Positions 2,859 through 28,894 of a DNA stretch of 64,000 nt are shown here, in pieces. A program made the translations under genes and the position numbers. Each line of letters starts with the position of its first letter. The stretch's first letter is position 1. The notes below the pieces were generated by a model, which had not been told where the DNA came from, did no database searches, and saw only the letters and a program-made list of their open reading frames with translations. This DNA comes from Microcoleus sp. FACHB-831 (lineage in GTDB: Bacteria > Cyanobacteriota > Cyanobacteriia > Cyanobacteriales > FACHB-T130): positions 62,001 to 126,000 of the forward strand of contig NZ_JACJON010000077.1 in the NCBI RefSeq assembly GCF_014695585.1. Reading direction: 5' to 3'.

Positions 2859-3362
2859 ATGGAAAGTATTCACATTCCTCAACTGACAAAAGCGCCTCAA
2901 AAAACACAGGTAATTGAGGTTGATGAGTTTCTCCCCGACTTGGAAACGCTAACGCCAGTGCGCGGAAGGGTTTCTGTGGCACATAAGGGGAGCTACCTTG
3001 AGGTTTCCGCAACTGCGGAGACGATTATTACCTTAAATTGCCATCGGTGCTTGCAACAGTTCAATCATCGGTTATCGCTCAAAACATCGGAAATGATTTG
3101 GTTAGATGAATCCGCTGACCAACCTGATAATGGCCCGTTAGAACGAGAAACTGCCATTGAAGACTTGGTGGAGGCACTACCACCCCAAGGGTATTTTGAG
3201 CCAGAGGCGTGGCTATACGAACAGATGTGTCTGGCAATTCCTCCACGCCAACTGTGTGACGAAAACTGTCCAGGAATCCAGCCATCTGATAGCGTTGTTT
3301 CAGAACAAACTACGGATCGGCGCTGGGCATCTTTGGCAGATCTTAAAAAGCAGCTTTCCTAA
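2859..3362 (+). CDS. DUF177 (YceD-like) protein
   Basis: A 167-residue soluble protein of the YceD/DUF177 family. Seen directly: an N-terminal beta-rich part, a CxxC pair (CHRC, near residue 60) and C-terminal Cys residues (LCDENCPGI), the conserved cysteine pattern of this family. Relatives are linked to large rRNA accumulation (YceD in plants and bacteria), so a role in ribosome assembly is a reasonable inference. The ATG at 2859 is chosen because AGGAGGG lies 11 bases upstream. ATG at 2832 and TTG at 2784 would start inside a repeat. Confidence 0.8.
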   Translation: MESIHIPQLTKAPQKTQVIEVDEFLPDLETLTPVRGRVSVAHKGSYLEVSATAETIITLNCHRCLQQFNHRLSLKTSEMIWLDESADQPDNGPLERETAIEDLVEALPPQGYFEPEAWLYEQMCLAIPPRQLCDENCPGIQPSDSVVSEQTTDRRWASLADLKKQLS

Positions 3363-3484
3363 AAAGGAAAAAGGCGACCCCCTCCCCCCTTCGCACGGGG
3401 GGAGGCAAAAAAAAGGAAAAAGAAAAAATTTTTATTTTTCCTTTTTACTCTTAATTTTTATTTTTTACTTTTATAACTACTGCC
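3363..3484 (+). terminator. Two hairpins between the DUF177 and Ycf46-like genes
   Basis: A GC-rich stem CCTCCCCCC (3381-3389) pairs with GGGGGGAGG (3397-3405) around a 7-base loop. A second, A-T-rich hairpin follows, in which AAAAGGAAAA (from 3411) pairs with TTTTCCTTTT (to 3446). The second has the shape of an intrinsic terminator followed by further T runs. The first is more like a dispersed C-rich repeat. Together they probably end the rpmH-to-DUF177 transcript. Confidence 0.5.
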
Positions 3485-11445: not shown

Positions 11446-12696
11446 CTAGCTGAGGGATTCCAGATAATCCCGCACGCGATTGCGGCGCTTGGGTTGGCGC
11501 AACTTTTGCAAAGCTTTGGCTTCAATTTGACGGACTCGTTCGCGGGATAGATCTAAAGCGCGACCGATTTCTGCGAGGGAGTAAGGATGTCCATCTCCCA
11601 TCCCGAACCGCATCCTAATCACATCTCTTTCGCGGGTGGTGAGATCCGCAAGCAAATCCTGTAAATCGCGGTGTAATGCTTCTCGCATTAACACTTCTTC
11701 GGGAGAAACCTCTTCCGTCTCCAGCAAATCGCCTAATTCGGTATCTTTCTCTTTACCGACCTTAATTTCTAAAGAAACAGAACGAGGAACGCGCAGTAAG
11801 ACTTCGCGTACTTGAGGCGCGTCCATATCTAGCTCTTTGGCAATGTCCTCGATAGTCGCGGTGCGACCTTTTTCTTGAGAAATTTTGCGTTGAGCCTTTT
11901 TAATTTTGTTGAGTTTTTCGGTGATATGTACGGGCAACCTAATAGTGCGGCTTTGGGTAGCCAGCGCCCGCGTAATTCCCTGACGAATCCACCAGTATGC
12001 ATAGGTGCTAAACCTATAACCCTTGGTAGGGTCAAACTTCTCGACTGCCCGTTCTAGACCCAATGTGCCTTCTTGGATTAAATCGAGGAGTTCCAAGCCG
12101 CGATTTTGATACTTTTTGGCAACCGACACCACTAGGCGCAGGTTGGCTTTAATCATGTGTTCCTTAGCCTGCACCCCTTCAGCGTGAATGGTATCAAGTT
12201 CCTCAACAGTCAGATCGACTATTTCTGCCCAGCGACGCTTTCCGGCTGCTAAACTTGGTTTCAGTTCCGATACGGGAACGCCACCCGCAGTAGCCCAACG
12301 CTCTAAAGAAGGACGGTGGCCAAGTTGGGACGCTAGACGATCGCGTGACTCAATCAAGCGGACGTAGCGCTGAATTACTTCATCTGTGTCTCCGGCGACT
12401 TCAGCTCGGAGTTCCAGCAGGCGCATATAGCGCTGAACTTTTTGAGATTCTGAGACTTCTTCATCCCGCCTCAGCAAACGAACGCGGCCAATTTCTTGAA
12501 GGTATAAGCGCACCAGATCGGTGGTACGACGGTTAGCAGTTACTGACAAGTTAGTAGCATCGTCGGTACCTTCCATATCAAGGTCAACAAGCTCATCCAC
12601 CAGGGGTACCGCCTCATAGTGGCTCGACGGCTCAAAGCCGCTGGCTTCAACCTGAGCGTCGTATTCTGTTTCTGCGTAGAAAGGAGTGGCTGGCAT
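11446..12696 (-). CDS. sigC: Group 2 RNA polymerase sigma factor SigC
   Basis: A 416-residue sigma-70 factor. Region 1.2 is TTDLVRLYLQEIGRVRLL (near 57-75). Regions 2.1-2.4 run from HMIKANLRLVVSVAKKYQ to FSTYAYWWIRQGITRA (~178-243). Region 3 follows, and region 4.2 is the helix-turn-helix SLAEIGRALDLSRERVRQIE (~370-390). The spacer between 1.2 and 2 and the N-terminal extension differ from SigA and match the SigC type, including SQLGHRPSLERWA. SigC in model cyanobacteria responds to carbon, nitrogen and stationary-phase state. The start is the ATG at 12696; the Shine-Dalgarno is weak. Confidence 0.85.
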   Translation of the reverse strand: MPATPFYAETEYDAQVEASGFEPSSHYEAVPLVDELVDLDMEGTDDATNLSVTANRRTTDLVRLYLQEIGRVRLLRRDEEVSESQKVQRYMRLLELRAEVAGDTDEVIQRYVRLIESRDRLASQLGHRPSLERWATAGGVPVSELKPSLAAGKRRWAEIVDLTVEELDTIHAEGVQAKEHMIKANLRLVVSVAKKYQNRGLELLDLIQEGTLGLERAVEKFDPTKGYRFSTYAYWWIRQGITRALATQSRTIRLPVHITEKLNKIKKAQRKISQEKGRTATIEDIAKELDMDAPQVREVLLRVPRSVSLEIKVGKEKDTELGDLLETEEVSPEEVLMREALHRDLQDLLADLTTRERDVIRMRFGMGDGHPYSLAEIGRALDLSRERVRQIEAKALQKLRQPKRRNRVRDYLESLS

Positions 12697-14310: not shown

Positions 14311-14333
14311 GAATAATGAACAATCGATTTATT

Positions 14334-14469
14334 AGACCTATTGCAAAAGTTGAAGTTAACCCCCCTTAATCCCCCCTTGGTAAGGGGGGAAAAACTTGAA
14401 ATCTTGCCCCCTCCCCTTAGTAAGGGGAGGGCTGGGGAGGGGTGATTCATGGATTTTTGCAAGAGGTCT
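14334..14469. mobile_element. 136-bp MITE-like element, copy 1
   Basis: The ends are inverted: AGACCTATTGCAAAAG on the left and TTTTTGCAAGAGGTCT on the right. The inside has two C/G hairpins: CCCCCCTTGGTAAGGGGGG, then CCCCTCCCCTTAGTAAGGGG. It has no ORF. Two more copies, at 23734-23860 and 24760-24895, share the whole sequence and, where complete, the same length. It is therefore a short, non-autonomous, structured element. Here it lies just upstream of gpsA, between gpsA and lipA. Confidence 0.7.
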
Positions 14470-16143: not shown

Positions 16144-17688
16144 TTACTCGAATCCTGGAAAGCTCAATTGTTTTGGTTCGGGTTCGGGTTTTGCTTTGCG
16201 GCTTTTATTTTCAGTTTTACTTTTTGCTTTTTTGTTTGTATCCAGTTTCTCGCGTTCGGCGCGGATGCGTTCTAAGAGGACTGAGGCGGTTTCGTCGTTG
16301 GGGTCTTGGGGAACCAGTTCGCCTCTGAATGCTTTGGCGAGAATGGATTGATCGAGTTGAGCTAGGTAGGCTTTTGACTCTTGGTATTGTTGCTTAATAC
16401 AGTCAGCAGTTTTAAGGAGAGCTTCTACTCGGCGAACAAGCTCTTGTTGCTCTAAATACGGTGGTAACGGTATCTGTAAGGCTCTAACATCTCCGATATT
16501 GATTCCTCGAACTGCAACTCCTTTAATCGCCTTTTGCATCCTCTCTTGAGTTGCTTTAGCTTTAAGAAACCAAAAAACATAGTCAGAAAACACGTCTGTT
16601 TGAATACTTAATCTGGCAGAATCTTGGGTAATATTAGCTCCATTCAATAGAGGCGGAATTTTACATAAACGACCAACAGTTCCTCGGATAGAAAGTAGTA
16701 AATCTCCTGTTTTTAATCGAGACCTTGCATACTGCACATCTATTTCAAAGGAAGTTTTTCTAATGGTTTCTGGATTAAGCTGGTCATTTGGAAAATCCGC
16801 AACTCGAATATAAGGTACACCATCATGTACCTCAAAACCAGGTTTTAAAATTCCATAAGTGATAGGGCGACCCGGTTCACAAATATCCTTTAATTCTGCT
16901 ATCTTCCACGTTTTAGGAAATGCCTCGGAAGTTAAATTATGAACACCATCTGTAGGTGGAGCTGCATTTCCTCGTTTATGTCCACCTGCCAATTCATGTG
17001 CTTTCAAGATTTTGTGTAACAAACTGCTTGCAGGTTCAACATCGGGGTTTTTCTCTCGCCAGTCGGCGGTAAGATCGCCACGAAAAGCGGCAGCGAGGAC
17101 AGATTGGCGGAACTGGTCTAAGAGGGGCGCGATCGCCTCAAGTTCCTCCTTCACCCCCTGGCTCCGAGCCTTCAACGCCTCAATCTTGCCAACTATGCGG
17201 CGTTGTTCGTTGAGGGGCGGTAAGGAGATTTCAAACTCCGAAACTTGCTTTAGATTTAAATTTTGCAGTCCAACACCACGACGCTGCTCTCGAATCCTAG
17301 CTTCAAGTAAATGGGATGATAAAAAATGAGCAATATACTCAGGCAATATTGGTTTTACGAGGCGAATAATAGATACAGCTTGATTAGTATTAGCTGGCAA
17401 GTCATTCTGATGAACAATCCCAATTCTTCCGAGAGTTCCTGCAATTGAAAATAAGATGTCATCTTCTTGCAAACGTGAGCGTGCTAAAGCTTCATCAGCA
17501 TCTGGGTCAATATAGGTACATAGCGCATGATTTATACGCTGATCTGAGATACTTTCAACTTTTACAAACAGAATACCTTTGTCAGTAAAGTTAAAGCCCA
17601 ATGATGTAGGAGTTGTACCTTTTGTAATCCGATATGATAGTTCTCCGAGTGGTACTCGACACCAACCAGGAATATTTTTCTTAATCAA
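16144..17688 (-). CDS. hsdS: Type I restriction-modification specificity subunit
   Basis: HsdS recognises the bipartite DNA target for the HsdM/HsdR complex. The 514-residue product has two target-recognition domains (~1-150 and ~245-400). The first ends with FEISLPPLNEQRRIVGKIEAL and the second with LQIPLPPYLEQQELVRRVEAL, the conserved region-boundary motif before each long spacer helix. The C-terminal tail is Lys-rich. The start is TTG at 17688 with GAGGAAG just upstream. That TTG overlaps the stop of a relic hsdM tail (TTGA), so the original hsdM-hsdS coupling is still visible. Confidence 0.93.
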   Translation of the reverse strand: MIKKNIPGWCRVPLGELSYRITKGTTPTSLGFNFTDKGILFVKVESISDQRINHALCTYIDPDADEALARSRLQEDDILFSIAGTLGRIGIVHQNDLPANTNQAVSIIRLVKPILPEYIAHFLSSHLLEARIREQRRGVGLQNLNLKQVSEFEISLPPLNEQRRIVGKIEALKARSQGVKEELEAIAPLLDQFRQSVLAAAFRGDLTADWREKNPDVEPASSLLHKILKAHELAGGHKRGNAAPPTDGVHNLTSEAFPKTWKIAELKDICEPGRPITYGILKPGFEVHDGVPYIRVADFPNDQLNPETIRKTSFEIDVQYARSRLKTGDLLLSIRGTVGRLCKIPPLLNGANITQDSARLSIQTDVFSDYVFWFLKAKATQERMQKAIKGVAVRGINIGDVRALQIPLPPYLEQQELVRRVEALLKTADCIKQQYQESKAYLAQLDQSILAKAFRGELVPQDPNDETASVLLERIRAEREKLDTNKKAKSKTENKSRKAKPEPEPKQLSFPGFE

Positions 17689-17789
17689 CCTACTTCCTCA
17701 CTATCCAACAACTCTGACAGCGCCTCCATTTTTTCCATCGCCGCCTGCAACCTCACTAGAATTAAGAGCCGCAATTTCAGAAGGCGCTC
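17685..17789 (-). pseudogene. Relic of hsdM 3' end (relic 3, next to hsdS)
   Basis: Read on the minus strand, this piece encodes PSEIAA, a one-base frame slip, then VRLQAAMEKMEALSELLDSE and a TGA that overlaps the TTG start of hsdS. It matches the C-terminus of intact HsdM (IMVRLQTAMEEMTELMVLLDE). It follows the VapC stop codon directly. Nothing upstream could express it as a gene. The coupling at its end shows it was the true hsdM end before other genes were inserted. Confidence 0.75.
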
Positions 17790-18197
17790 TCACCCCACCT
17801 CTTCCCAATCCTCAATCTGTAATCCATTCACACGGCTAAATTCACCCGTATTATGCGTAACCAATATTAGATTATTCACCAAAGCAATAGCCGCAATTTG
17901 TAAATCATAGGGGCCAATAGGCGTACCCAATGCCGCTAATTGAGCGCGAACTTGGCCTGCAACTTCAGCAGAGCGAGAGTCTAAAGGCAAAATAGGAAAC
18001 TGACTGATAAACCGTTGTAGCACCGCTAAATTTTGTTCAACATTACCACTGCGATACGCTCCATAAAATAGCTCCATTTGTACAATAGTACACAGATAAA
18101 TATCATTTGGCTGTTTTGCTGCCAGCCGAGTAGTAACCAGAGGACTGGTATTGTTCAACAATCGGATACAAACATTAGTATCAAGCAGGTAAGTCAA
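17790..18197 (-). CDS. vapC: PIN-domain toxin VapC
   Basis: A 135-residue PIN-domain ribonuclease of a type II toxin-antitoxin pair. The acidic active-site residues are in place: LLDTNV (Asp near 6), QMELFYG (Glu near 42), and GPYDLQIAA (Asp near 98), followed by THNTGEFSRVNGL. Length is normal. The start is TTG at 18197, overlapping the antitoxin stop as TTGA, so the pair is translationally coupled. It lies inside the hsdM-hsdS interval and is flanked on both sides by relics of the hsdM 3' end. Confidence 0.88.
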   Translation of the reverse strand: MTYLLDTNVCIRLLNNTSPLVTTRLAAKQPNDIYLCTIVQMELFYGAYRSGNVEQNLAVLQRFISQFPILPLDSRSAEVAGQVRAQLAALGTPIGPYDLQIAAIALVNNLILVTHNTGEFSRVNGLQIEDWEEVG

Positions 18198-18448
18198 AAC
18201 AGCGGCTCCCGCGTCTCATACTCTCCCTGCGGTTCGCGCACTAGCGGTTCTCCCACCCAACCCCCAATCACTTCTTCAAAAAAACCAGGATTCCAGCCTA
18301 ATTCCTCTGGTGTTTTCGATGGCGTTGATAATTCAATCGGCTGATAAATCACCATCACTTCAAACTCTTTATCTTGTATTCCTACGGGAATATCAAGATG
18401 CAAAATACCATCTTTTCCCACAAGCGATCGCGTTTTAATACTCTTCAT
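18194..18448 (-). CDS. Antitoxin of the VapBC pair
   Basis: An 84-residue protein. The N-terminal ~40 residues form a short beta-rich domain (GKDGILHLDIPVGI). The C-terminal half (TPEELGWNPGFFEEVIGGW near 46-64, then GEYETREPLF) is the toxin-neutralising region common to cyanobacterial partners of this VapC type. The gene ends within the vapC start (four-base overlap). The antitoxin normally binds its own promoter with the toxin. No clear ribosome binding site is seen. Its start lies 17 bases after the stop of an hsdM relic. Confidence 0.8.
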   Translation of the reverse strand: MKSIKTRSLVGKDGILHLDIPVGIQDKEFEVMVIYQPIELSTPSKTPEELGWNPGFFEEVIGGWVGEPLVREPQGEYETREPLF

Positions 18449-18465
18449 ACTTTTTTACCTACTAA

Positions 18466-18576
18466 CTACTCTTCCAACAATATCGTCAGCGCTTCCATCT
18501 CCTCCATCGCCGTCTGCAACCTCATCATAATCAATAGCCGCAATTTCAGAAAGCGATCGCATACAGCAACTTACAT
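18466..18576 (-). pseudogene. Relic of hsdM 3' end (relic 2)
   Basis: On the minus strand it reads SEIAA, a one-base slip, then IMMRLQTAMEEMEALTILLEE and a TAG at 18466-18468. It matches the HsdM C-terminus and is closer still to the other relics, which share SEIAA and MEAL. The preceding sequence (GTAAGTTGCTGTATGCGATCGC) is also shared with relic 1. It lies between the ParD-ParE fusion and the VapBC pair. Confidence 0.75.
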
Positions 18577-19116
18577 TTAACCCTCGTCTTCATCTTGGAA
18601 AAGCGCCTCTAAATCCCGATAACCACTAACAACCCGCAAAATCTCAATTCCTCCCTCAATCGGGCGACAAAAAATCAAGTAATCATCAACTCGCCCTATA
18701 TCAGGAAAATTGGCTAAAGTCTTACACTTTTGATTTATTTTGTTGAGCAAGCGCTGCGCTGTATCCAAACTAATATTGCCAGCAACATAGTCGATAATGC
18801 TTTCAATATCTCGACTAGCCGGAACAGTAAACCTACAAATATTACTCATTCCACCTTCTCGCTCACGAAGCCGTTGCAGCTTCTGTTGCAGTTGGCTGAA
18901 AACTATCTCGTCATCAACAACCTCTCCCCGTTTAGACGCTTCAACACCAACCCTAATTTCCCGTCTCAACTCCTCAAAGCGCCCCTTGTAGATGCGTTCC
19001 CGTTCTTCAAACGCCCTAAGTGCCGCTAGGATAACTTCGTCAGGCGAGGTGTACTTGCCACTCTCTACTTGACTTTGAATAAACTGTTCAATTTCTGGAG
19101 TTAATGATACGTTCAT
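18577..19116 (-). CDS. ParD antitoxin-ParE toxin fusion, toxin part shortened
   Basis: A single 179-residue frame. Residues ~1-88 are a ParD-type antitoxin (MNVSLTPEIEQFIQSQVESG, then SPDEVILAALRAFEERE). From the internal Met at ~89 (MSNICRFTVPAS) it is a ParE/RelE-fold toxin ending GIEILRVVSGYRDLEALF. Usually the two are separate, overlapping genes. The toxin lacks about 13 residues that normally follow GR (the R.DL.PGLRSFPV strand and turn) and has Cys in place of the usual Tyr in IFYRP. The toxin is probably weakened or inactive. A GAAGGTGGA before the internal ATG could still allow separate synthesis. Confidence 0.8.
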   Translation of the reverse strand: MNVSLTPEIEQFIQSQVESGKYTSPDEVILAALRAFEERERIYKGRFEELRREIRVGVEASKRGEVVDDEIVFSQLQQKLQRLREREGGMSNICRFTVPASRDIESIIDYVAGNISLDTAQRLLNKINQKCKTLANFPDIGRVDDYLIFCRPIEGGIEILRVVSGYRDLEALFQDEDEG

Positions 19117-19150
19117 TGATGTTTACTCTTTAGTCTTGTTAATCATCTTC

Positions 19151-19298
19151 CTATTCTAGAAGCGCGGTTTCAGTCTCTTCCTCATCCTCAAGCAACGCTG
19201 TCAGCGCCTCCATCTCCTCCATCGCTGTCTGCAACCTCACCATAATCTGTGCGGCAATTTCAGAAGGCGATCGCATACAGCAACTTACTTTTAACCCT
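19151..19298 (-). pseudogene. Relic of hsdM 3' end (relic 1)
   Basis: On the minus strand this reads, without a frameshift, SEIAAQIMVRLQTAMEEMEA and onward to LLEDEEETETALLE and a TAG at 19151-19153. It aligns with the last ~30 codons of the intact hsdM. It has no start of its own and lies 75 bases after the Rpn gene and 34 bases before the ParD-ParE fusion. It is the least damaged of the three relics. Confidence 0.75.
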
Positions 19299-19373
19299 GG
19301 CGATCGCGAATCCTTTACCCCATAGGTTGCTAATCGTATTTCTATTCTAGAAACTGTTTTAAATGCAACTTCA

Positions 19374-20303
19374 TCAACTCAATCTATCCAGCCATTCGAT
19401 AAGCTCTGCTTCGCTAGAAAAGTCTAAAAGTGCCTCTCCCAAGTCTTCAACCCGATCGATTTCTAGGCGGCTAATTCGCTCCCTCAAATCGAGCCGCAAA
19501 GTTCCCAAACGGCGATTTAATTGCCGTAGCACTAATGCTACCTCTCTTTGTTGTCCCTGGTGCAATCCGCGCCGGATTCCCTCTTCCATCCAGCTTGTGA
19601 CAATTTCCATAACCCTCTCCTCTTCAGTTAGTCCCATCCTATCAAGCTCAACCTCAAACGCCGCTTCCTCCCTTGTATCCAACCGCAAGTAGGTATCCAC
19701 AAACCCTGAAATCAACCGCATCCGCGCTGGATCTAGCTTTAGAGTCGCCAACAGACGTAAACACTCCGCCTTCACCTTCGGACGTTCCTCCGGTTGAATC
19801 TTCATTTTTGCCATTAATGCTGCTGCTACGGGATTGCGCTGCTGCAAAAAATCCCGCCAATTCATCTGATTGAGTTGAATGGTCGTAAAATTGAATTCCA
19901 ACACCTTTAATTGTGGGAAATCTACCCGATATTGTGTTGTCTCTGCTCGTTGTGGTTCATCGAAAGAAAACACCACAACTGGATAGACGGGTAACAAATA
20001 CTCCTGATGCAATTTAGCAAAATAGAAGAACATCCGCCGAGCAAAATTCGACTCCGTGTAAGACTGATTCTCCACATGGATAATAAAAAATGCCGACTGC
20101 TCGCGAAACCCCACTTGAGCAACAATATCTAGAAGTTTGCGATCGCCAGAAACAAGATCGGTAAAATACTCCTGGGGTAAAAAAGTAATAGAGTCTCGTT
20201 CCAGAAAACCCGCTACATCGGGCAGAAATAACTCAATGAACTCTATAAAAAACGTTGAGAGGAGTTCTTTGAACAACTGGTCATGGTTAATTTGCTCACT
20301 CAT
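19374..20303 (-). CDS. Rpn/PD-(D/E)XK family protein with DUF4351 tail
   Basis: A 309-residue protein. The N-terminal ~200 residues follow the Rpn/putative-transposase nuclease pattern: HDQLFKELL at the start, then KLLDIVAQVGF and FFIIHVENQSY, where Asp and Glu/Gln sit in the places of the nuclease motif (Glu-x-Gln replaces the common E-x-Q/K). The C-terminal 60 residues are a DUF4351 domain (LVLRQLNRRLGTL...LEALLDF-like end). Rpn proteins are recombination-promoting nucleases and some act in phage defence. ATG at 20303 overlaps the hsdM stop by eight bases. Confidence 0.8.
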   Translation of the reverse strand: MSEQINHDQLFKELLSTFFIEFIELFLPDVAGFLERDSITFLPQEYFTDLVSGDRKLLDIVAQVGFREQSAFFIIHVENQSYTESNFARRMFFYFAKLHQEYLLPVYPVVVFSFDEPQRAETTQYRVDFPQLKVLEFNFTTIQLNQMNWRDFLQQRNPVAAALMAKMKIQPEERPKVKAECLRLLATLKLDPARMRLISGFVDTYLRLDTREEAAFEVELDRMGLTEEERVMEIVTSWMEEGIRRGLHQGQQREVALVLRQLNRRLGTLRLDLRERISRLEIDRVEDLGEALLDFSSEAELIEWLDRLS

Positions 20304-21717
20304 CAAGCAACACCATGAGTTCCGTCATCTCCTCCATCGCCGTCTGCAATCTCACCATAATCTCAGCAGCAATAATCTCCGGTTCTGGCAAACCATCGCC
20401 CGATTGCAAACTTTCATCCCTTAACCAAGAAATATCGAGATTTTCCCCGCGCTTGGCTATCTCCTCCCTAGTAAAACAACGCCAGCGTCCGGTTTCCCCT
20501 TGGTCAACACGCGGACTGTTGCCATTCGGGTCATCTCCATAGGCTAATTCAAATTCTTGGAAATGCGATTGGGTCAGGGGAATCCGCTTCCCAAAACTGG
20601 GCATATTCGTCCGCAAATCATAAATCCACACAGCTTTAGTATTCCCCTTTTCCGTCGTCCCCCGCTGAAAAAATAGCACGTTCGTCTTCACACCTTGGGC
20701 GTAAAAAATCCCCGTAGGTAAGCGCAAAATTGTATGTAAATTGCACTTATCCATCAAATCTGCCCGGACGTTGCGCCCCTGTCCATCCTCAAATAAAACA
20801 TTATCAGGTAACACCACCGCCGCCCGTCCTTCCGGTAGCAGACTGCGATAAACGTGCTGCAAAAATACCAATTGCTTGTTAGAACTGGGATAAGTAAAAT
20901 CATCCCGCGTCGGACTTCCACCGCCTTTTTTAGTACCAAAAGGTGGATTAGTTAAAATTACATTTGCCCTACCTAATCGCTGTCCATCGGGTGAGAGAGT
21001 ATCCCCCAAAGTTACTTCCCCCTCAATACCGTGCAGCATCATATTCATCAACAGCAAGCGATGGGCATCTTGCACCAATTCCATGCCATAAAATGCCTGC
21101 TGTCGTTGAAACACCTGTTCAGCTTCCGAGAGGGAAAACAATTCATCAGTGCGCTGTTTAATATAGCGGTCAGCAGCAATCAAAAAACCACCCGTTCCCG
21201 CTGCTGGATCTTGTAGCAGTTCCCCCGGTTGCGGTTTCATCAAAGACACCATGCAATCAATCAGCGGACGCGGTGTAAAATATTGCCCCGCCCCAGATTT
21301 CTTCTCGCTGGCGTTCTTTTCTAATAGCCCTTCATAGAGGTCGCCTAACCCTTCTTCCTTAGCAGAATACCAATCCAACTTATCAATACTATCGACGAGC
21401 TTGCTTAAAATGCGCGGTTGTTTTAGCGCCGTTTGAGCATTAGCAAAAATCGCCTGCACCCTTAACGAAGAAGCTTTTGACCCCAATTCTAAGAGCAGCG
21501 AACGGTAAAATGTCAACTGTTCTATCCCTTCTTTTGCTGTCAAATTTGCCCAGCGCATTTCTTCGGGCAATTGGTCTTCTACCCCCGTCTCCTGCGCCAT
21601 CTTGAGAAATAGCAAGTAAGTCAGTTCCGTAACATATTGCAGGTAAGTAATGCCATCATCCCGCAGGACGTGGCACAGGTTCCACAGTTTTTGGACAATA
21701 TCAGTTGTTGCGTTCAT
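20296..21717 (-). CDS. hsdM: Type I restriction-modification DNA methyltransferase subunit
   Basis: HsdM methylates adenine in the target and forms the core complex with HsdS. The 473-residue product has the N-terminal helical HsdM_N domain (~1-130), the AdoMet motif DPAAGTGGFLIAA (~185-197) after GAGQYFTPRPL, and the catalytic NPPF (VILTNPPFG, near 258). ATG at 21717 is preferred over an upstream start because NATTDIVQKLWNLCHVL is the usual N-terminus. It overlaps the end of the upstream 622-residue gene by 17 bases. The last 30 codons recur as three relics downstream. Confidence 0.95.
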   Translation of the reverse strand: MNATTDIVQKLWNLCHVLRDDGITYLQYVTELTYLLFLKMAQETGVEDQLPEEMRWANLTAKEGIEQLTFYRSLLLELGSKASSLRVQAIFANAQTALKQPRILSKLVDSIDKLDWYSAKEEGLGDLYEGLLEKNASEKKSGAGQYFTPRPLIDCMVSLMKPQPGELLQDPAAGTGGFLIAADRYIKQRTDELFSLSEAEQVFQRQQAFYGMELVQDAHRLLLMNMMLHGIEGEVTLGDTLSPDGQRLGRANVILTNPPFGTKKGGGSPTRDDFTYPSSNKQLVFLQHVYRSLLPEGRAAVVLPDNVLFEDGQGRNVRADLMDKCNLHTILRLPTGIFYAQGVKTNVLFFQRGTTEKGNTKAVWIYDLRTNMPSFGKRIPLTQSHFQEFELAYGDDPNGNSPRVDQGETGRWRCFTREEIAKRGENLDISWLRDESLQSGDGLPEPEIIAAEIMVRLQTAMEEMTELMVLLDE

Positions 21718-23569
21718 TTTCGGTTTTTTCAGAAGTTGAAAATGCACTAGGTTTTATAGGATCGCTTACATACTTAATTTTCTTATTTAATGATGTAATT
21801 TTTAGGATTTTATCTTTAATGTCTACTTCTCCTTCAAGTGTCCATTCTCCCTCATTATTATAGTTTTCTCTAATAAATATGTTAAGCAAATTTGTATTGG
21901 TAGTCGATGAAGGTTTAATTGATATAGATATTTGACCACAGTTGAATATTTTTTTCAAAATGATTAGCATATCCAGGCTATCGTTATAATTACTAGAGAC
22001 TGGCTCCAATATTTCATAGCGATTTTGATTAAATAAATATCTAACTAAAAATTTATCTATCCAACTAGCTGTGTATTTTTTTCTATCTTTTTGAATTAAT
22101 TCTAAAATTAGCTCTAAACTTTTTTCATCTAATAAACGCTCTACTATTTCATAATCTTTATATAAAAAATTAAATAAGCCAGAAATCAAGAAATCAAATG
22201 GCTTATTGTACATTTCATATCTTAATATAATTCTATCGTCAGGATGTACTTTCTTTATTTCGTCCTGAAAAACAGGATTTATTCTTTCTTCAAGCTCATT
22301 TAATTCGTGATTTAATTGTAAAAGTGATTGTTCATCTCTTGATATACATTGATAGTAGGTTATAATTACAGATTTTTGGATAAAGTCAACTCTTTCTCGT
22401 AGGTTATCCGGAGCTTGGAAAACTAATTCTTCATCCTCTAATACTTCTTTTTTTATCTTAACAATATTATTGAAAAACATATCAAACCATTCATTTGAGA
22501 AAAATGTTAATTTATAATATACTCTATAAAGATTTCCTTCTAATTTCCAAAGCTCTCTTAACCATGCTTGATTCTCAAAATGAGTTAAACAGTCTTTTAT
22601 AGCTCGTTTAATTTCATCTGCAATAGAACTGAAAGACAGAGAATCAGAAAGCATTTCATTATTCGGCAGAATTTTAACAAGTAAGGCAATTAAATTTTGA
22701 CGATGGCAGATTGCAGGGCGTCCTCTCAAAACTTGGAGAATAGTCGTAACAACTTTAGACTTTTCAAGATTATTTAATAATTCAAATTTTGAATTAAATG
22801 CTTCATATATAATCTTAAAATCCCCAAAAGTGTTGGAAAAGCTAAAACTTAGCTTTATTAATTCATCTAAAGTACTACTAAAGCAAATTTGCTTGAAGCT
22901 TTGCTCAGATTCAAGGGCTTTTCTAAAATAAATGTTCCTTCGATTTTCTTGTACTACTGGACGAGCAGATTCTAAAATAGAGTCTACTGCCAAAGAGAAC
23001 TCTTGCAGTCGTTCTTCCATTACTTCAACAGATAAAATATCTCTAATATCGTCAAGTACACGCTGTTTTAGCATTGGGAGAAGATTTTTTGCACCCAATA
23101 TTTTATTTAGCATCAAAAATTTTTGCGGTAATTCAGTTGAGCTGATATTTAAAATTGGTTGATAAGCCTCATCAATGTTTCGTGAATCATAAACTACAAT
23201 ATTCCACCCATTAATAACGGCAAAGTAACGAGCATTGACTTCGGGGTGTAAAGCATATAAATGTGCTTGAAAAATACTTTTTTCTTCGATTTGTCTAGGA
23301 GAAGATGGTTTTGCCTCAATTATCCAAAACTGTTTTTTACGAACCAATAGTGCATAATCTATATCAATTCTTTTACGCCCTACCATGAGGAAGGGTTTAT
23401 GTAATTGATGTTTCTCTTCGCGGTTTATATCGTAGTCAGTATTCTTGCGATATCCTAATAATTTTAACAAAGGTTGGATAAATTCTTCCCTAACATCATT
23501 TTCGTTCCAGTCATTAAAATCAAAATTTGACAGCCTAGAAAGTTCTTTGCCCAGATCTTCTATTGTCAT
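21701..23569 (-). CDS. Protein with N-terminal PD-(D/E)XK (HsdR_N-like) domain and large helical region, unknown
   Basis: A 622-residue protein. Residues ~1-150 form a nuclease-like domain: EEFIQPLLKLLGYR, RIDIDYALLV (Asp), FWIIEAKPS (ExK) and IFQAHLYAL (motif IV Gln). The other ~450 residues are mostly helical with no motif I recognise. There is no helicase or ATPase motif, so it is not a second HsdR. It is visibly richer in A+T than its neighbours, a sign of separate origin. It sits between hsdR and hsdM and overlaps hsdM by 17 bases. It may be an added nuclease or regulator of the system; this is inference. Confidence 0.65.
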   Translation of the reverse strand: MTIEDLGKELSRLSNFDFNDWNENDVREEFIQPLLKLLGYRKNTDYDINREEKHQLHKPFLMVGRKRIDIDYALLVRKKQFWIIEAKPSSPRQIEEKSIFQAHLYALHPEVNARYFAVINGWNIVVYDSRNIDEAYQPILNISSTELPQKFLMLNKILGAKNLLPMLKQRVLDDIRDILSVEVMEERLQEFSLAVDSILESARPVVQENRRNIYFRKALESEQSFKQICFSSTLDELIKLSFSFSNTFGDFKIIYEAFNSKFELLNNLEKSKVVTTILQVLRGRPAICHRQNLIALLVKILPNNEMLSDSLSFSSIADEIKRAIKDCLTHFENQAWLRELWKLEGNLYRVYYKLTFFSNEWFDMFFNNIVKIKKEVLEDEELVFQAPDNLRERVDFIQKSVIITYYQCISRDEQSLLQLNHELNELEERINPVFQDEIKKVHPDDRIILRYEMYNKPFDFLISGLFNFLYKDYEIVERLLDEKSLELILELIQKDRKKYTASWIDKFLVRYLFNQNRYEILEPVSSNYNDSLDMLIILKKIFNCGQISISIKPSSTTNTNLLNIFIRENYNNEGEWTLEGEVDIKDKILKITSLNKKIKYVSDPIKPSAFSTSEKTENERNN

Positions 23570-23600
23570 AAAATTTATTTCCACAAATTTAATTATTTTA

Positions 23601-23733
23601 ATTTTTTCCAGAGACTATTGTTAATCTCACCTAAAATCTCTTCTAACCGTCGGTCAAAAGTTTTATTAAGTCGCTCAAATCCTCCGCCTTGCTCCTTTAA
23701 TGCTCTGCGATCGCAAGCATCCCGATCTACAAT
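23601..23733 (-). pseudogene. Relic of hsdR 3' end (relic B)
   Basis: This plus-strand segment, AATCTCTTCTAACCG...CAAATCCTCCGCCTTG...CATCCCGATCTACAAT, matches the last ~130 bases of the intact hsdR (25524-25664) with many substitutions. It is broken off at a MITE-like element at the same base (after GATCTACAAT) as relic A. It carries no open frame of useful length. It lies between the 172-residue membrane gene at 24027 and the PD-(D/E)XK gene. Confidence 0.7.
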
Positions 23734-23860
23734 AGACCTCTTGCAAAAGTTGAAGTTACCCCCCTTAATCCCCCCTTGGTAAGGGGGGAAAAACTTGGAA
23801 ATCTTGCCCCTCCCCTTAGTAAGGGGAGGGCTGGGGAGGGGTCATTGATGGATTTTTGCA
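23734..23860. mobile_element. MITE-like element, copy 2 (right end altered)
   Basis: The left end AGACCTCTTGCAAAAGTTGA and both internal C/G hairpins match copy 1. The right end stops at GGATTTTTGCA and runs into another TCTTGCAAAAGTT, which looks like a second, broken left end. Beyond it, GTTGGGT (about 23881) and ACCCAAC (about 23902) form a different dispersed hairpin. The element is inserted in an hsdR relic at the same site as copy 3. Confidence 0.65.
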
Positions 23861-24026
23861 TCTTGCAAAAGTTCTAGTAGGTTGGGTAAAGCGATCGCGA
23901 AACCCAACAGCACCACCTAAATAAAGTTGGGTTTCGTTACCTCAACTCCAGGTCGCTAGGGTGGGAGACTTACCGCTTTTCGTGTGGCTCCCCAACGTAC
24001 TGACTATTTAACACGATCCAGCAATA

Positions 24027-24545
24027 TCATTCGTTTCGGGGTGCCTTCATCCTTACAATTATGCTATTTATTATTATCAAATTAGCAAGTCCAATAATCA
24101 ACCCTGCCACCCAATAACTCTCCCCGCGACTGTCATCTTCTTGAGCGACAATGGATGTTTGATTGGGGTCTTTAATAAATTCATTAATCTCAGCAGGTAG
24201 GGAGGCTGTATTCCCACTCGGCCCATAAAATCCAGTAGGGAGGGGAATTTTCCCATTCTCCGTTTTCAAAAGGGTATAATAGTAAGTTTTTTTGGAAGAA
24301 TAAGAATAACTTTCCAAGGATGCTGATTTTAATTCTTTTACGGGGAACGCACGAAGCTGTTTTTTATTAAATGGCCCTGTGAATGTTGTCAATTCGCAGT
24401 TTCCTTGGTTGGGTTTTATTCGCTGACAATTAAATGTGGTAAAACTTGTAGGAGATGCCAATAAAATTACTGTCGTACATACACCATTAAAGACTAATAA
24501 TAGTCCCACTAAACTGAAAAAGTCACGTACTTTGTTCAAATTCAT
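24027..24545 (-). CDS. Two-TM membrane protein, second copy, unknown
   Basis: A 172-residue protein. TM segments lie at ~10-32 and ~145-163. Between them is an external or periplasmic domain with the pattern TTFNCQR...GNCEL (two Cys that may pair), KKQLRAFPVKELKSASLES and a Tyr-rich strand. It is paralogous to the gene at 24942: the same length, the same MNLNK start, the same order of motifs. Many cyanobacteria carry proteins with this Cys pattern, with no known role. It forms a duplicated unit with the hsdR 3' relic that precedes it. Confidence 0.7.
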   Translation of the reverse strand: MNLNKVRDFFSLVGLLLVFNGVCTTVILLASPTSFTTFNCQRIKPNQGNCELTTFTGPFNKKQLRAFPVKELKSASLESYSYSSKKTYYYTLLKTENGKIPLPTGFYGPSGNTASLPAEINEFIKDPNQTSIVAQEDDSRGESYWVAGLIIGLANLIIINSIIVRMKAPRNE

Positions 24546-24617
24546 TGTCTGATTATTTACAGATTGCTTATCAGAGGTTAAATCTAAGTAATCGCAAGTA
24601 AAAATATACTATTATTT

Positions 24618-24938
24618 CTATGCCATCTCCTGCCAAAGAGCGTCGTTAATATCCACCAAAATTTATTCTAGGCGTCCGTCAAACGCCTTATTAATTCGCT
24701 CAAATCCTCCACCTTGCGCCTTGAAAGCTCCGCGATTGCAAGCATCCCGATCTACAATATACCTCTTGCAAAAGTCGAATTTACCCCCCTTAATCCCCCC
24801 TTAGTAAGGGGGGAAAAACTTGAAATCTTGCCCCCTCCCCGAACTCGCGGGGAGGGCTGGGGAGGGGTCATTCATAGATTTTTGCAACACGTCTAATAAC
24901 CTCTGTCTTCAACTATTGGCCAATCCTTTCGAGCCACT
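24618..24938 (-). pseudogene. Relic of hsdR 3' end (relic A), split by a MITE-like element
   Basis: The plus-strand sequence from CTATGCCATCTCCTGCCA (24618) to CGATCTACAATA matches the intact hsdR end at 25524-25664 at most positions. It resumes after the element at 24896 (ATAACCTCTGTCTTCAAC) up to GAGCCACT at 24938. Read on the minus strand it has an internal TAA (CGCCTAGAATAA). It sits between the two paralogous membrane genes. The upstream gene stop is three bases away. Confidence 0.8.
24760..24895. mobile_element. 136-bp MITE-like element, copy 3, with visible target site
   Basis: The ends TACCTCTTGCAAAAG and TTTTTGCAACACGTCTA are inverted, with the same internal hairpins as copy 1. The empty site is known from the intact hsdR: CTACAATAACCTCTG. 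Here the flanks are CTACAATA and ATAACCTCTG, so ATA (or TA) was duplicated on insertion. This is direct evidence that the unit has moved as a discrete element. Confidence 0.75.
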
Positions 24939-24941
24939 GTC

Positions 24942-25460
24942 TCATTCGTTTCTGAGTTCCTGAATACCCAATTTTAGAGCATGAATTGCTATTAAATTAG
25001 GAATTGAAAGAAACAACCCTCCAAATATATACATCTGCAAACGAAAATCATCTTCTTGAACGTTTAGGGATGTCTCCTTTGGGTTTTTAATAAAATTATT
25101 AATTTCAGTAACTAAAGAGGCTCTAGTCCCAGTCGATCCATAGGCATCGGTACGGAGATCGATGTCTTCTGTCTGTGTTTTCAAAGAAACATAGTAAGTT
25201 TTTCTCGATGAAGAAGAAGTAGATCTTTCCAGAGAAGCTGATTTCAATTCTTTGAGGGGAAACGTGCGAATCTTTTCTTTATTGGATGGCCCCGTGACCG
25301 TTCTTAATTCACAGCTTCCTTGATTCGAGTCTATACGCTGACAATTAAATGTAGTAAAACTTGCCATCCAAAAAATCATTGCCAACCCTGCGCTAGAAAA
25401 GAGCAAGCTAAACAACAATCCCATGAAAATGTAAAAATGGCTTGCTTTGTTTAAATTCAT
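24942..25460 (-). CDS. Two-TM membrane protein, first copy, unknown
   Basis: A 172-residue paralogue of the 24027 gene. It starts MNLNKASHFYIFMGLLF, with TM segments at ~8-32 and ~147-165. The central domain again has TTFNCQR...GSCEL, KEKIRTFPLKELKSASLE and an ITEINNFIKNP-like end. It begins 63 bases after the hsdR stop; the spacer before it is nearly identical to the one before the second copy, which shows that the duplicated unit included this spacer. It may be a membrane-linked accessory of the restriction system or a simple passenger. Confidence 0.7.
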   Translation of the reverse strand: MNLNKASHFYIFMGLLFSLLFSSAGLAMIFWMASFTTFNCQRIDSNQGSCELRTVTGPSNKEKIRTFPLKELKSASLERSTSSSSRKTYYVSLKTQTEDIDLRTDAYGSTGTRASLVTEINNFIKNPKETSLNVQEDDFRLQMYIFGGLFLSIPNLIAIHALKLGIQELRNE

Positions 25461-25523
25461 TGTTACAAGTTGCTTATTAGAGGAAAAATCTAAGTAATTG
25501 CAAGTAAAAATATACTATTATTT

Positions 25524-28500
25524 CTATGCCATCTCCTGCCAAAGAGCTTCGTTAATATCCACCAGAATCTCTTCTAACCGTCCGTCAAACGCCTTATTAA
25601 TACGCTCAAATCCTCCACCTTGCGCCTTGAATGCTCCGCGATCGAAAGCATCCCGATCTACAATAACCTCTGTCTTCAACTGTTGGCCAATCCTTTCGAG
25701 CCACTTGCGCTGCGGTGCAGTCCAAGCACGACTCGCCAAGATTTTCTTCATCGCTTTATCCACGCGATCGCCATAAGGAACCAACGCATTTCCTAGCGCC
25801 GCCTGCCGAATAAATCCGATAATAGAAGCAGCAATATCCTCGTTTGTAGTCTCCCGCCACGCCACTTGCAAATTAGTTTCAGAGAAACCCGCCGCATCCA
25901 ATAACAGACGCACTTCCTTGAGTTGCGATCGCGTCAATTCGCGGGGTCGCTGAGTCACCACCAACAGCGCCGGAATCTTATTCAAATTCTCCCCTAAAAA
26001 GGCGTTAAAGCTGTTTAAATAATCTTGCGGCTTTTCCCCCTTTCCATACCCCCGTTCTACACTCCTCAAAACATTGGGGTGATGGGAAATTAAAACCGCT
26101 TGCAACCCGCCATCGCGTCGGTCTAACACTTCAGCGATCGCTTTTTTATCCCGCAACCACTGCGCCGCCTGGGTGGGACTAGATTCGCGCAGATGGCTTA
26201 CCACGTCATCAACAGACATATTTGCCAAGAGTGCGATCGCTTCCTTGCTGTCATCGGAAAGCGATCTTTTTTTGCGCTGCAACTTCGCCAACAGCTCATC
26301 AATAATACACGCGATCGCTGTCGAATCTTTCACCCTCCCCAACTCATCAACTAGCTGACTAAAAGAAATATTCGGCTGTTTAACCACTGGCTTCATTTCC
26401 GACACTTTCGAGATAGTGCTATAGATATCTACCGCATCAAAAACGCGAAACACCTCTTTACCAATCTCATCACAAAGGCGAGTAGCGCGTCCTATCATTT
26501 GGTCATACAATATCCGGGAATTCACCCGTCGCATAAACACTAAATTGCAGATTTCGGGAACATCAATCCCCGTCGTCAACAAATCTACCGTCACCGCAAT
26601 CTTAGGATTAGCCTCATTTTTAAAACGGCGAATCAACTGCATCGGTTTATCAGCATTCCCCGTAATCTTCAACACCGCGTCATCTTCGACGCTACCATAC
26701 TGCTTTTCTAAAGCGAGTTTCAGTTGGTCAACCACCATATCCGCATGATCTGTATTGACGCAAAAAATTAGCGTTTTCCCCGGTAACGCTGGGTCAATAT
26801 TTTCAGCCAAATATTCACAAACCACCCGATTAAATTCTTTAGTAACCACCCGCCGATTAAACTTATCAACATCAATGCGAACGGTATCCGGCGCGTGAAC
26901 TAAATCCAATTCCCCCGTTTTAGGGTCAAAAAACTCCATCTGGTCGCCTGGGTTCCAGACAATACCATCTTCAGATAACGCTGTTTTAATTTCATAAGGC
27001 GGTTCGTGGTCAATCAACCAACCATCAATTACGGCTTCCGGATAACTGTAGGTAAAAACAGGTTCGCCAAATATCTGGGTTGTATGCAGCGCTGGCGTTG
27101 CTGTCAGACCAATTTTTACCGCATCGAAGTAATCCAACACCCGGCGATACTTAGAAATGTAGTCGTTGAAGTCGCGGAAGGTTAGTTGTGTCTCGCTTAA
27201 CTCTTGGTCGAGCAAATAACCGCGATGGCACTCATCAACTACAATGCAATCATATAGATCGACCGTTGGAATAACAGTTTTTTCAGAGGGATAAATCAGG
27301 CGTTTGACAAAACTTTGGACGGTTGCAATGTGAACTTTAGTATCGCTATCAATATCGCGATCGCCTAATTCCTTAATCTCAAAAATATCGGCAAAAGTCT
27401 GTAAACTCTCCATCCGCGAATCTTTAAAAGCATTCGCCGACTGTTCCCCTAATGCCGTGCGGTCTACTAAGAACAAAACGCGGCGAAAGCGCTTAGTTTT
27501 CAACAACCGATATACCAAAGCAATGCAGGTTTTAGTTTTCCCCGTCCCCGTCGCCATTGCGATCAAAAGTTGGCGCTTATTATCAGCAAGTTCTGCCTCA
27601 ACCTTTTGAATTGCCTTAATCTGATAATCTCTAAGCTTCAGGTTGTAGCTAAAACCTTCTTCAGCCAGCTTTCTATGCGCTTCCTCTAAATCCTGACTCA
27701 GCGTATCAACCAAACCTTGCGGACTGTACCAACTCGGTAACGGTCGGCGCAAATTTTCAGGACGGCGCAAGTCGCAAAACCAAATACCGCTTTTAGTCCG
27801 CAGTTGCTCTAAAAATTCCCTGCCATTTGTTGCAAATACAAACGGGACTTTAAATTCACCCCAAGGGTTGCCATTTGCTATTTCATCCCCTTTGATTTGA
27901 TAGCCGCGACTGTAGCGCTTCGCCTGGTCAATTGCTGCGGAAACATCCTTACTCTGGCGCTTAGCTTCTACAACTGCGACAACTTGCAATCCTACAAACA
28001 ACGCATAATCAGCGCGTCCATCGGCTGTGGGATATTCTGCGATCGCTAAATTCTTCCCTTTTTGCGGACGAGTACCGTTATTATATTTAAGTTCTTCCGA
28101 GTCTACTTCCCAACCTGCTGCTCTTAGTTGCGCGTCAATCAAGCGGCGCGTCTCGGCCTCATCGAGAACAACTTCCTTTTCCGCCTGCTGCACTTGACGA
28201 AGAGTTTGTTGCAAAACTTCAGCAGGTTGACTAACAGTACGCGCTTGCAGTTCAGCCAAATTATTTAATGCTGTTTTAGCTTCTGCTTCCGCTTCTTCCA
28301 ACAACTGTTCGGCTAACTGTCTGAGTTCTGTTTCCTTTGCGGCTTTAGCCAAAGCCATTTCCACCGCCGAACGCCTTTCGTCAGCTTCCTGTCGCAGCCG
28401 TTCTAATTCTTGCTGGAGTGCTTGCGTTTCATTTAGCGGGTCGGGTGGCGGAATAAACGCCCCCGCTTTAAAGTTTGCATCTCTACCAAAACTTCTGTGA

Positions 28501-28877
28501 AACCAAATGCCTAATTCCCTGGCATATTTAAGGTTACTTAGCGCTGTGCGATGGTCGCCGGATAAGGCATGATTGGCATCATTTCCCGCACGTCGCAACT
28601 CGTGGAATAGTTGATTAGTTCGACCTGGTAAATACCCCTTATCCCGCAAGCGATTGAGTAACTCAATCTGCGATTCGCCAGCGTCAGGATCGTATTGACC
28701 AAAATTTGCTGCTACTAACTGCGCCAAAAGTTCGCCAAACTGACGCAGTTTCATCAAGCAGGTTACTGGGTCATTAACAAAATACTGTTCGGCCAGAGTT
28801 CCTAAGCGCAATAACTGCGGTTCGCGCTCGCCTAAAAAGGCAAAGTTAGGAGATTTGAGACTATTATCCTGTGGCAT
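25524..28877 (-). CDS. hsdR: Type I restriction endonuclease and translocase subunit
   Basis: HsdR moves DNA with its helicase motor and cuts far from the recognition site. The 1117-residue product has an N-terminal DUF4145 domain (~15-125), a coiled coil (~140-235), the PD-(D/E)XK nuclease domain (DYALFVGLQVVAVVEAKRQS, near 290-310), then motor motif I (MATGTGKTKT), motif II (VVDECHRGY), motif III (GLTATPA) and motif VI (DQMIGRATRL). The C-terminal EcoEI-type domain ends the protein. ATG at 28877 is chosen over a TTG three bases upstream. It starts 17 bases after the upstream gene, so one transcript is likely. Confidence 0.95.
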   Translation of the reverse strand: MPQDNSLKSPNFAFLGEREPQLLRLGTLAEQYFVNDPVTCLMKLRQFGELLAQLVAANFGQYDPDAGESQIELLNRLRDKGYLPGRTNQLFHELRRAGNDANHALSGDHRTALSNLKYARELGIWFHRSFGRDANFKAGAFIPPPDPLNETQALQQELERLRQEADERRSAVEMALAKAAKETELRQLAEQLLEEAEAEAKTALNNLAELQARTVSQPAEVLQQTLRQVQQAEKEVVLDEAETRRLIDAQLRAAGWEVDSEELKYNNGTRPQKGKNLAIAEYPTADGRADYALFVGLQVVAVVEAKRQSKDVSAAIDQAKRYSRGYQIKGDEIANGNPWGEFKVPFVFATNGREFLEQLRTKSGIWFCDLRRPENLRRPLPSWYSPQGLVDTLSQDLEEAHRKLAEEGFSYNLKLRDYQIKAIQKVEAELADNKRQLLIAMATGTGKTKTCIALVYRLLKTKRFRRVLFLVDRTALGEQSANAFKDSRMESLQTFADIFEIKELGDRDIDSDTKVHIATVQSFVKRLIYPSEKTVIPTVDLYDCIVVDECHRGYLLDQELSETQLTFRDFNDYISKYRRVLDYFDAVKIGLTATPALHTTQIFGEPVFTYSYPEAVIDGWLIDHEPPYEIKTALSEDGIVWNPGDQMEFFDPKTGELDLVHAPDTVRIDVDKFNRRVVTKEFNRVVCEYLAENIDPALPGKTLIFCVNTDHADMVVDQLKLALEKQYGSVEDDAVLKITGNADKPMQLIRRFKNEANPKIAVTVDLLTTGIDVPEICNLVFMRRVNSRILYDQMIGRATRLCDEIGKEVFRVFDAVDIYSTISKVSEMKPVVKQPNISFSQLVDELGRVKDSTAIACIIDELLAKLQRKKRSLSDDSKEAIALLANMSVDDVVSHLRESSPTQAAQWLRDKKAIAEVLDRRDGGLQAVLISHHPNVLRSVERGYGKGEKPQDYLNSFNAFLGENLNKIPALLVVTQRPRELTRSQLKEVRLLLDAAGFSETNLQVAWRETTNEDIAASIIGFIRQAALGNALVPYGDRVDKAMKKILASRAWTAPQRKWLERIGQQLKTEVIVDRDAFDRGAFKAQGGGFERINKAFDGRLEEILVDINEALWQEMA

Positions 28878-28894
28878 CAACTAATTGTTAATTT

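Follow-up and report, generated by a model that had tools for sequence, protein, structure and literature searches.

The window analysed here (the whole stretch of 64,000 nt, from contig NZ_JACJON010000077.1 of Microcoleus sp. FACHB-831) contains a type I restriction-modification operon in which hsdM and hsdS are separated by three accessory gene units; a copy of the 3'-terminal part of hsdM lies behind each of these units. All genes of the operon lie on the minus strand, and the gap between hsdM and hsdS reads, in this order, rpn (a DUF4351/Rpn-like gene), relic R1, parDE (a parD-parE fusion gene), relic R2, vapBC and relic R3. Four kinds of junction are stacked in series in the window, and each of them is known singly behind an intact hsdM elsewhere. 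With a probability of roughly 65%, the array combines alternative gene junctions from a single operon family in one stack, which would have been built by incoming DNA consisting of a gene tail and an accessory gene.

The relics were detected by scanning the C-terminal peptide of HsdM against 15 kb of the coding strand, with 20 shuffles as a control. The intact hsdM scored 79 (at 20376), the relics scored 105 (19261), 79 (18546) and 71 (17777), and the best of the 20 shuffles reached 29, confirming the preliminary description, in which three units, each with an hsdM end copy behind it, had been placed between hsdM and hsdS. R1 (19151–19261, 111 nt; profile score, 80.0 bits) has an intact frame and is joined to parD, R2 (18466–18547, 82 nt; 62.3 bits) is frameshifted and joined to vapB, and R3 (17685–17778, 94 nt; 51.7 bits) is joined to hsdS, its nearest native tail type being L217/R3-like. 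A weak fourth trace (R0, 19327–19352), comprising the end of the hsdM tail and its spacer, was found after rpn, with scores of 32–37 against shuffle maxima of 25–27. Beyond the intact hsdM and R1 to R3, no further copies of the hsdM tail were found in a search of the same genome (next match, E = 0.02).

R1 and R2 are 91% identical over 100 nt, including 37 nt of a common upstream stretch, and R3 is 79% identical to R1 (100 nt) and 78% identical to R2 (106 nt). R1 shares 80% identity with the intact hsdM over 82 nt, but within R2 there is a core of 37 nt with 95% identity to hsdM. The earlier statement that the relics are closer to each other than to the intact gene holds for R1 and R2, and only loosely for R3. 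R2 and R3 have a 1-nt insertion in common, which puts SEIAA out of frame with the remainder; with a frameshift in two of the three relics, the possibility that they are functional domains of separate genes, which would have spoken against the preliminary description, did not come true. The profile scores fall with distance from hsdM (80, 62 and 52 bits), as is expected if the relic nearest to hsdS is the oldest.

For comparison, 114 distinct hsdM loci were used (124 including that of the window, minus 10 duplicates; loci and genomes are denoted by L and G numbers), of which 51 belong to the cyanobacterial type (HsdM at least 74% identical) and 63 lie outside it. The stretch from hsdM to hsdS was readable in 48 loci, while in 3 of the 51 hsdS was not in reach, and these were left out. 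In L230 and L047, where hsdS was undetected, the gap was closed at a manually chosen position, and no hsdS at all was found on the short contig of L230. Over 203 nt, R1 together with the start of parD (19261–19059) matches the intact hsdM|parD junction in G065 with 93% identity; the HsdM of this genome is 92% identical to that of the window, and the spacing between R1 and parD is the same as in G065. After hsdM, G065 has only 19 codons of parD, followed, immediately ahead of hsdS, by a short stretch that resembles the R3 end (score, 29; equalled in 1 of 1000 shuffles). R3 with hsdS resembles the tail of L217, where hsdM directly precedes hsdS. Directly behind an intact hsdM, rpn is found in L190 (G407; protein 64% identical), parD in L112, vapBC in the Nostoc locus L044, and hsdS, with no insert, in L031, L111, L217, L033 and L054. 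Uninterrupted hsdM-hsdS junctions, for which a search had been proposed, are thus present in 5 of the 48 readable relatives. Each of the relics resembles a native hsdM tail that has been moved away while remaining attached to the gene that formerly adjoined hsdM.

As to the proposed check whether units occur elsewhere with the same flank, the R1-parD stretch matches the junction of G065 as one continuous block, and two Nostoc loci behave likewise. In L046 (Nostoc sp. FACHB-152), the relic (11720–11801) is 94% identical to the end of its own hsdM, and the relic with the sequence downstream of it matches the intact junctions of L048 (Nostoc paludosum; 79% over 1113 nt) and L050 (85% over 833 nt); the relic is preceded by a vapC-parD copy that is 93% identical to L048. 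In L049 (Nostoc NMS2), the relic and its downstream sequence match the intact junction of L044 (91% over 1064 nt). Arrays of the gene-relic-gene-relic kind were found in L230 and L191. Two relics flank vapBC in L230 (G195), where a different gene adjoins hsdM, and this locus is 78% identical to the window over 946 nt, from the R2 joint through vapBC to R3. Two relics of its own tail type in L191 (G444) flank a 200-aa gene, which is read as Uma2-like. Regeneration of the hsdM end by insertion and recombination with another allele had been left as alternatives, and a mixture of the two is favoured here: it appears that the old end moved downstream and that the present hsdM end arrived with the newer gene, because relic and downstream gene match the intact hsdM end and gene of another genome as one block.

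Toxin-antitoxin and nuclease families accumulate in the hsdM-hsdS gap. An insert of 0.3–4.8 kb is carried by 43 of the 48 readable loci. A Pfam search of 145 mechanically called open reading frames (ORFs) of at least 60 aa from the gaps revealed PIN (28), DUF2281 (19), Uma2 (9), HepT-like (7) and nucleotidyltransferase (7) families, as well as rarer ones, such as UPF0175 (3), ParD (3), ParE (2), DUF4351 (2) and others; PADLOC candidates among the same ORFs were PDC-S09 (7), S03 (6) and S70 (3). Relics scoring at least 15 bits with a DNA profile of hsdM ends were found in seven loci (133 kb of gap sequence), and the best match of this profile in 486 kb upstream of hsdM was 11.8 bits. Scanning with each locus's own tail (score of at least 40) yielded copies in 8 of the 43 gaps (the window, L230, L191, L046, L047, L049, L188 and L226), with L188 and L047 as weak members (48 and 46 against 26 and 24), and in 0 of 48 control stretches upstream of hsdM. 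L085 was considered as a ninth case on a profile score of 16 bits, but its own tail did not detect a copy, and it was excluded from the eight. In the 63 loci outside the cyanobacterial type, no relic reached 15 bits with the model, which was built from cyanobacterial tails; when such loci from an earlier set were scanned over 6 kb with their own tails, the scores were marginal (best 37, shuffle maximum 30).

In the window, all three subunit genes are recognized by Pfam (EcoEI_R_C/ResIII in hsdR, N6_Mtase/HsdM_N in hsdM and Methylase_S in hsdS), which places the operon in the type I class, with predicted restriction and methylation activities. The gene hsdM (20296–21717; N6_Mtase, E-value 8e-74; HsdM_N) encodes an intact methyltransferase subunit, and its stop is overlapped by the start of rpn (19374–20303; DUF4351, E-value 3e-18). 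The Rpn-type family PF04754 remained below its gathering score (19.1 bits in the window and 20.9 in L190, cut-off 21). The fusion gene parDE occupies 18577–19116 (ParE, E-value 2e-11; ParD, 2e-7). A vapC-type PIN toxin gene (17790–18197; PIN, E-value 5e-18) is directly preceded by a putative vapB-type antitoxin gene (18194–18448, 84 aa), so that the pair has the VapBC arrangement of a PIN toxin gene behind a small antitoxin gene; the protein called VapB has no Pfam match of its own, and the name is given because of its place before the PIN gene and the DNA and protein similarity to the same pair in other gaps. The specificity subunit gene hsdS (16144–17688; Methylase_S, E-value 5e-25) has a TTG start. 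The non-hsd genes sit between operon genes on the same strand, as embedded genes do, and protection from phages by them is a prediction.

The preliminary description had treated the pattern as one of hsdM, but tails of hsdR show it in the same operon, and the gap between hsdR and hsdM (23620–25705) has the same architecture as that between hsdM and hsdS. The intact hsdR (25524–28880, 1118 aa; EcoEI_R_C, E-value 1e-38; ResIII; HSDR_N) is followed by gene A (24942–25460), behind which lies hsdR tail relic 1 (24618–24766; the last 148 nt of hsdR; score 240 against a shuffle maximum of 30). Gene B (24027–24545), a paralogue of gene A, is followed by hsdR tail relic 2 (23620–23741), a partial copy that is 86% identical to the hsdR end over 122 nt and is joined to a 627-aa gene (21701–23584). 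Genes A and B encode 172 aa each and have no Pfam match; the 627-aa gene has a weak HSDR_N-type similarity (24.7 bits, cut-off 25.1), and its 72% identical relative adjoins the hsdR 3' end in the Tychonema locus L031. Relic 2 with the start of the next gene (23741–23302) is 78% identical over 445 nt to this intact hsdR junction of L031. A dispersed repeat of about 130 nt is present in both hsdR relics at the same place (24767–24894 and 23742–23860), and again at about 14333–14469. In addition, a 44-nt piece of hsdR (25705–25662) recurs directly behind gene A (24938–24895), as if a relic had been split by the repeat.

When ORFs near hsdM were scanned by a single criterion for a copy of their own tail within 2.6 kb downstream, such copies were found for 3 of 45 hsdR, 7 of 51 hsdM, 3 of 41 hsdS and 3 of 199 other ORFs; an earlier count of ORFs other than hsdM, with hsdR and hsdS included, had given 9 of 285. 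The three hsdS genes whose 3' end recurs in this way are those of L039 (12155–13774; score 88), L054 (1708–3303; score 139) and L189 (5887–7389; score 44). In L217, about 174 C-terminal HsdR codons are repeated in the hsdR-hsdM gap (3272–3793), and a tail copy lies behind hsdR of L046 (4009–7338; score 62 against 26). The non-hsd genes with own-tail copies downstream are found in L047 (15196–15945), L049 (6365–7504) and L189 (12848–13651), the last of which looks like a tyrosine recombinase gene.

A stack of this kind could arise as follows. DNA of a related operon, comprising the 3' end of hsdM (or hsdR) and an accessory gene X, would recombine into the resident gene end; the resident gene would adopt the incoming end together with X, and its own tail, attached to the old neighbour, would be moved downstream as a relic. 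Repeated rounds would then yield hsdM-X1-[tail]-X2-[tail]-hsdS. In each lineage, the initial joint was probably formed illegitimately, inside the resident tail, with homology providing the join in the gene; alternatively, a linear fragment may have been closed into an imperfect circle that integrated by one crossover. Once present, tail repeats would permit homologous recombination, by which units may be duplicated, swapped or deleted. We infer the direction of the events, the source of the DNA, integration by one crossover, and any advantage that an operon may gain from its toxin-antitoxin and nuclease genes.

The main rival of incoming tail-borne genes is partial tandem duplication within one lineage, in which unequal crossover copies a gene tail together with its neighbour, the copies diverge, and the neighbour is later replaced, so that no outside DNA is needed for the relics. 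Its contribution is clear at hsdR, where the unit of relic 1 and gene B (24766–24027) is 75% identical over 752 nt to the unit of the hsdR tail and gene A (25671–24942). It also agrees with the presence of the parDE 3' end in two copies, with the native tail and relic A of L230, which are 93% identical over 114 nt and remain similar past the stop, and with the two vapC-parD copies of L046 (93% over 323 nt). Most relics of the window, L230 and L191, however, lie between different genes, and in L046 the upstream vapC-parD is nearest to L048 (93%), whereas the downstream vapBC is nearest to the L044/L050 types, which means that two allele types were joined. As an account of the whole, tandem duplication is considered unlikely.

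The joints of the relics bear on how the array grew. Positions 19262–19298, with which R1 had been said to begin, are not hsdM sequence; they are a copy of the parDE 3' end, followed by a spacer and the octamer of highly iterated palindrome 1 (HIP1) (score 64 against a shuffle maximum of 24), and are identical at 35 of 37 positions to the common joint before R2 (18548–18584), which has the same three components. The joint before R3 (17779–17789) follows the vapC stop without a gap and seems to be the same joint cut short. The joint core TGCGATCGC, followed by about 5 nt and the tail, is found at R1, R2 and both relics of L230, behind three different genes. Three independent and equal insertions are unsupported in view of the common 5' joint and the parDE-end copy before R1; recombination between repeats therefore accounts for part of the growth of the array. 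The parDE-end copy suggests that the parDE unit was duplicated and that one copy has since been deleted. As to the common core, either one founding joint may have spread by exchange between tail repeats, or HIP1 may have guided several joints.

Such a shared core would also be expected of a site-specific cassette system, in which cassettes are inserted by a recombinase that recognizes either the tail of the gene or HIP1, in the manner of integrons and of islands located at the 3' ends of genes, and the available part of one report mentions indications of site-specific and illegitimate recombination at HIP1 (PMC4390886). On the other hand, HIP1 lies within 20 nt of only 4 of the 11 joints looked at, and the octamer GCGATCGC is common in the window (90 copies in 64 kb, against about 0.65 expected from base composition). 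The breakpoints are constant within the window and L230 but differ in L191, L046, L049, L226 and L047, so that there is no constant target breakpoint of the kind that site-specific cassettes and islands have. Among the 25 families listed, of 32 Pfam families matched by the 145 gap ORFs, there is no integrase family, and transposases are few, the search having covered the gaps. Taken together, these observations make a site-specific system highly improbable. The joint pattern CGCYTTCTGAAATTGC, which in its exact form does not cover the variant joint of L230, occurs in 9 of 388 genomes of the order, the present one included; its matches in the 8 other genomes were rejected as the same joint, the contexts being unrelated by eye. 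The octamer at the joint may come either from the hsdM tail (L219 has GCGATCGCTTCTGAAATT in its own hsdM, and HIP1 occurs in the last 200 nt of 13 of the 51 native hsdM ends) or from the preceding gene.

It is hardly credible that the relics were kept for a function, for example as translational couplers bringing a native ribosome entry to the next gene. The stop of R3 overlaps the start of hsdS (TTGA), and R1 keeps the parD spacing of G065, but native spacing is expected anyway from simple displacement of a junction, most inserts have no relic, and the differences by codon position (20, 12 and 37 in the relics; 8, 5 and 24 in native tails) do not separate relics from native tails and carry no information on constraint of the relic frame. 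Chance similarity or an assembly artefact, for which one might cite the draft state of the genome (85 contigs), is a negligible explanation, as the scores are far above those of shuffles, the copies differ by 9–20%, and the same is seen in other assemblies.

Several observations weigh against the stacking of incoming tail-borne genes. At the threshold used, 35 of the 43 insert-bearing gaps have no own-tail copy, and therefore inserts usually arrive, or end up, without one. The relics of the window share one 5' joint and do not represent three independent first joints, and genes A and B look like products of a tandem duplication. Overlaps at the two joints that could be resolved (4 nt in L046 and 3 nt in L049) may be due to chance, and a comparison of the window hsdM with three near relatives revealed no clear step that would mark a recombination breakpoint between alleles. 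Own-tail copies are in excess in hsd genes, where 13 of 137 have one, compared with 3 of the 199 other ORFs, but the p-value of 0.001 is a guide only, since the loci, the window included, were chosen by hsdM, and matches within the same operon are not independent.

A broader proposal can be put forward tentatively, as possible rather than probable: cyanobacterial hsd operons may grow as recombinase-free cassette arrays, in which any tail-borne gene could be added at the 3' ends of hsdR, hsdM and hsdS alike, and the displaced tails (HIP1-starting in one lineage) would serve as portable homology for the exchange of toxin-antitoxin and nuclease cassettes between strains. The route by which embedded genes entered defence operons is rarely visible, and displaced tails are a readable footprint of it. 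If stacking by incoming tail-borne genes is the right reading, the tails reveal in which order units were acquired (the youngest adjoins the intact gene) and from what kind of allele they came, and they provide a rule by which recent captures can be searched for. It also suggests that compact defence arrays can be built with neither a transposase nor an integrase, through recombination where gene ends are shared.

In islands and cassettes at gene 3' ends (transfer RNA genes, the target gene of the staphylococcal cassette chromosome, integron cassettes), the end is renewed, the old end moves downstream, and units are stackable. The window differs from these in that no recombinase was seen among the gap ORF families listed and in that breakpoints vary between lineages.

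The embedding of genes in defence operons is itself known. According to the available parts of the respective reports, defence genes embedded in defence operons have been treated as 'guilt by embedding' candidates (PMC12988326), DarTG2 has been found between hsdS and hsdR (PMC12255303), and rlo/mlo genes lie in hsd loci of Campylobacter jejuni (PMC5183652). The likeness consists in toxin-antitoxin or nuclease genes between the genes of a type I restriction operon; the window differs by the displaced host-gene tails that mark the units, copied gene ends being unmentioned in the available parts of these accounts. No account of displaced hsd tails was found in the accessible portion of the open-licence literature, a negative that speaks only weakly for their absence; the footprint is apparently undescribed, and its mechanism is what we infer here. 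Overproduced Rpn (YhgA-like) proteins are described, in the parts available, as raising RecA-independent recombination in Escherichia coli (PMC5350276, PMC10327210). The gene adjoining hsdM is distantly related to them, with PF04754 below cut-off, and rpn is not needed for the footprint, because L190 is the only other gap with a close relative and has no relic.

A further comparison is with conjugated plasmids in E. coli, for which the available part of one report (PMC3240628) describes rare recombinants; in 56 of 60 clones, polymerase chain reaction showed part of the target gene end to be duplicated, with duplications of 109–950 bp in 14 sequenced clones and no microhomology at 3 of 4 joints. 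The duplications are explained there by a single crossover with a circle from which some of the homology had been lost. The window has the same end product, an insert that lies behind a gene and is succeeded by a copy of part of that gene's end (82–111 nt), and it is the end products alone that are visible. Classical homology-facilitated illegitimate recombination, in which most joints have microhomology of 3–10 bp, deletes resident DNA, whereas here the gene end is duplicated. The laboratory duplications are single events, whereas those in the window and its relatives are serial and occur across species.

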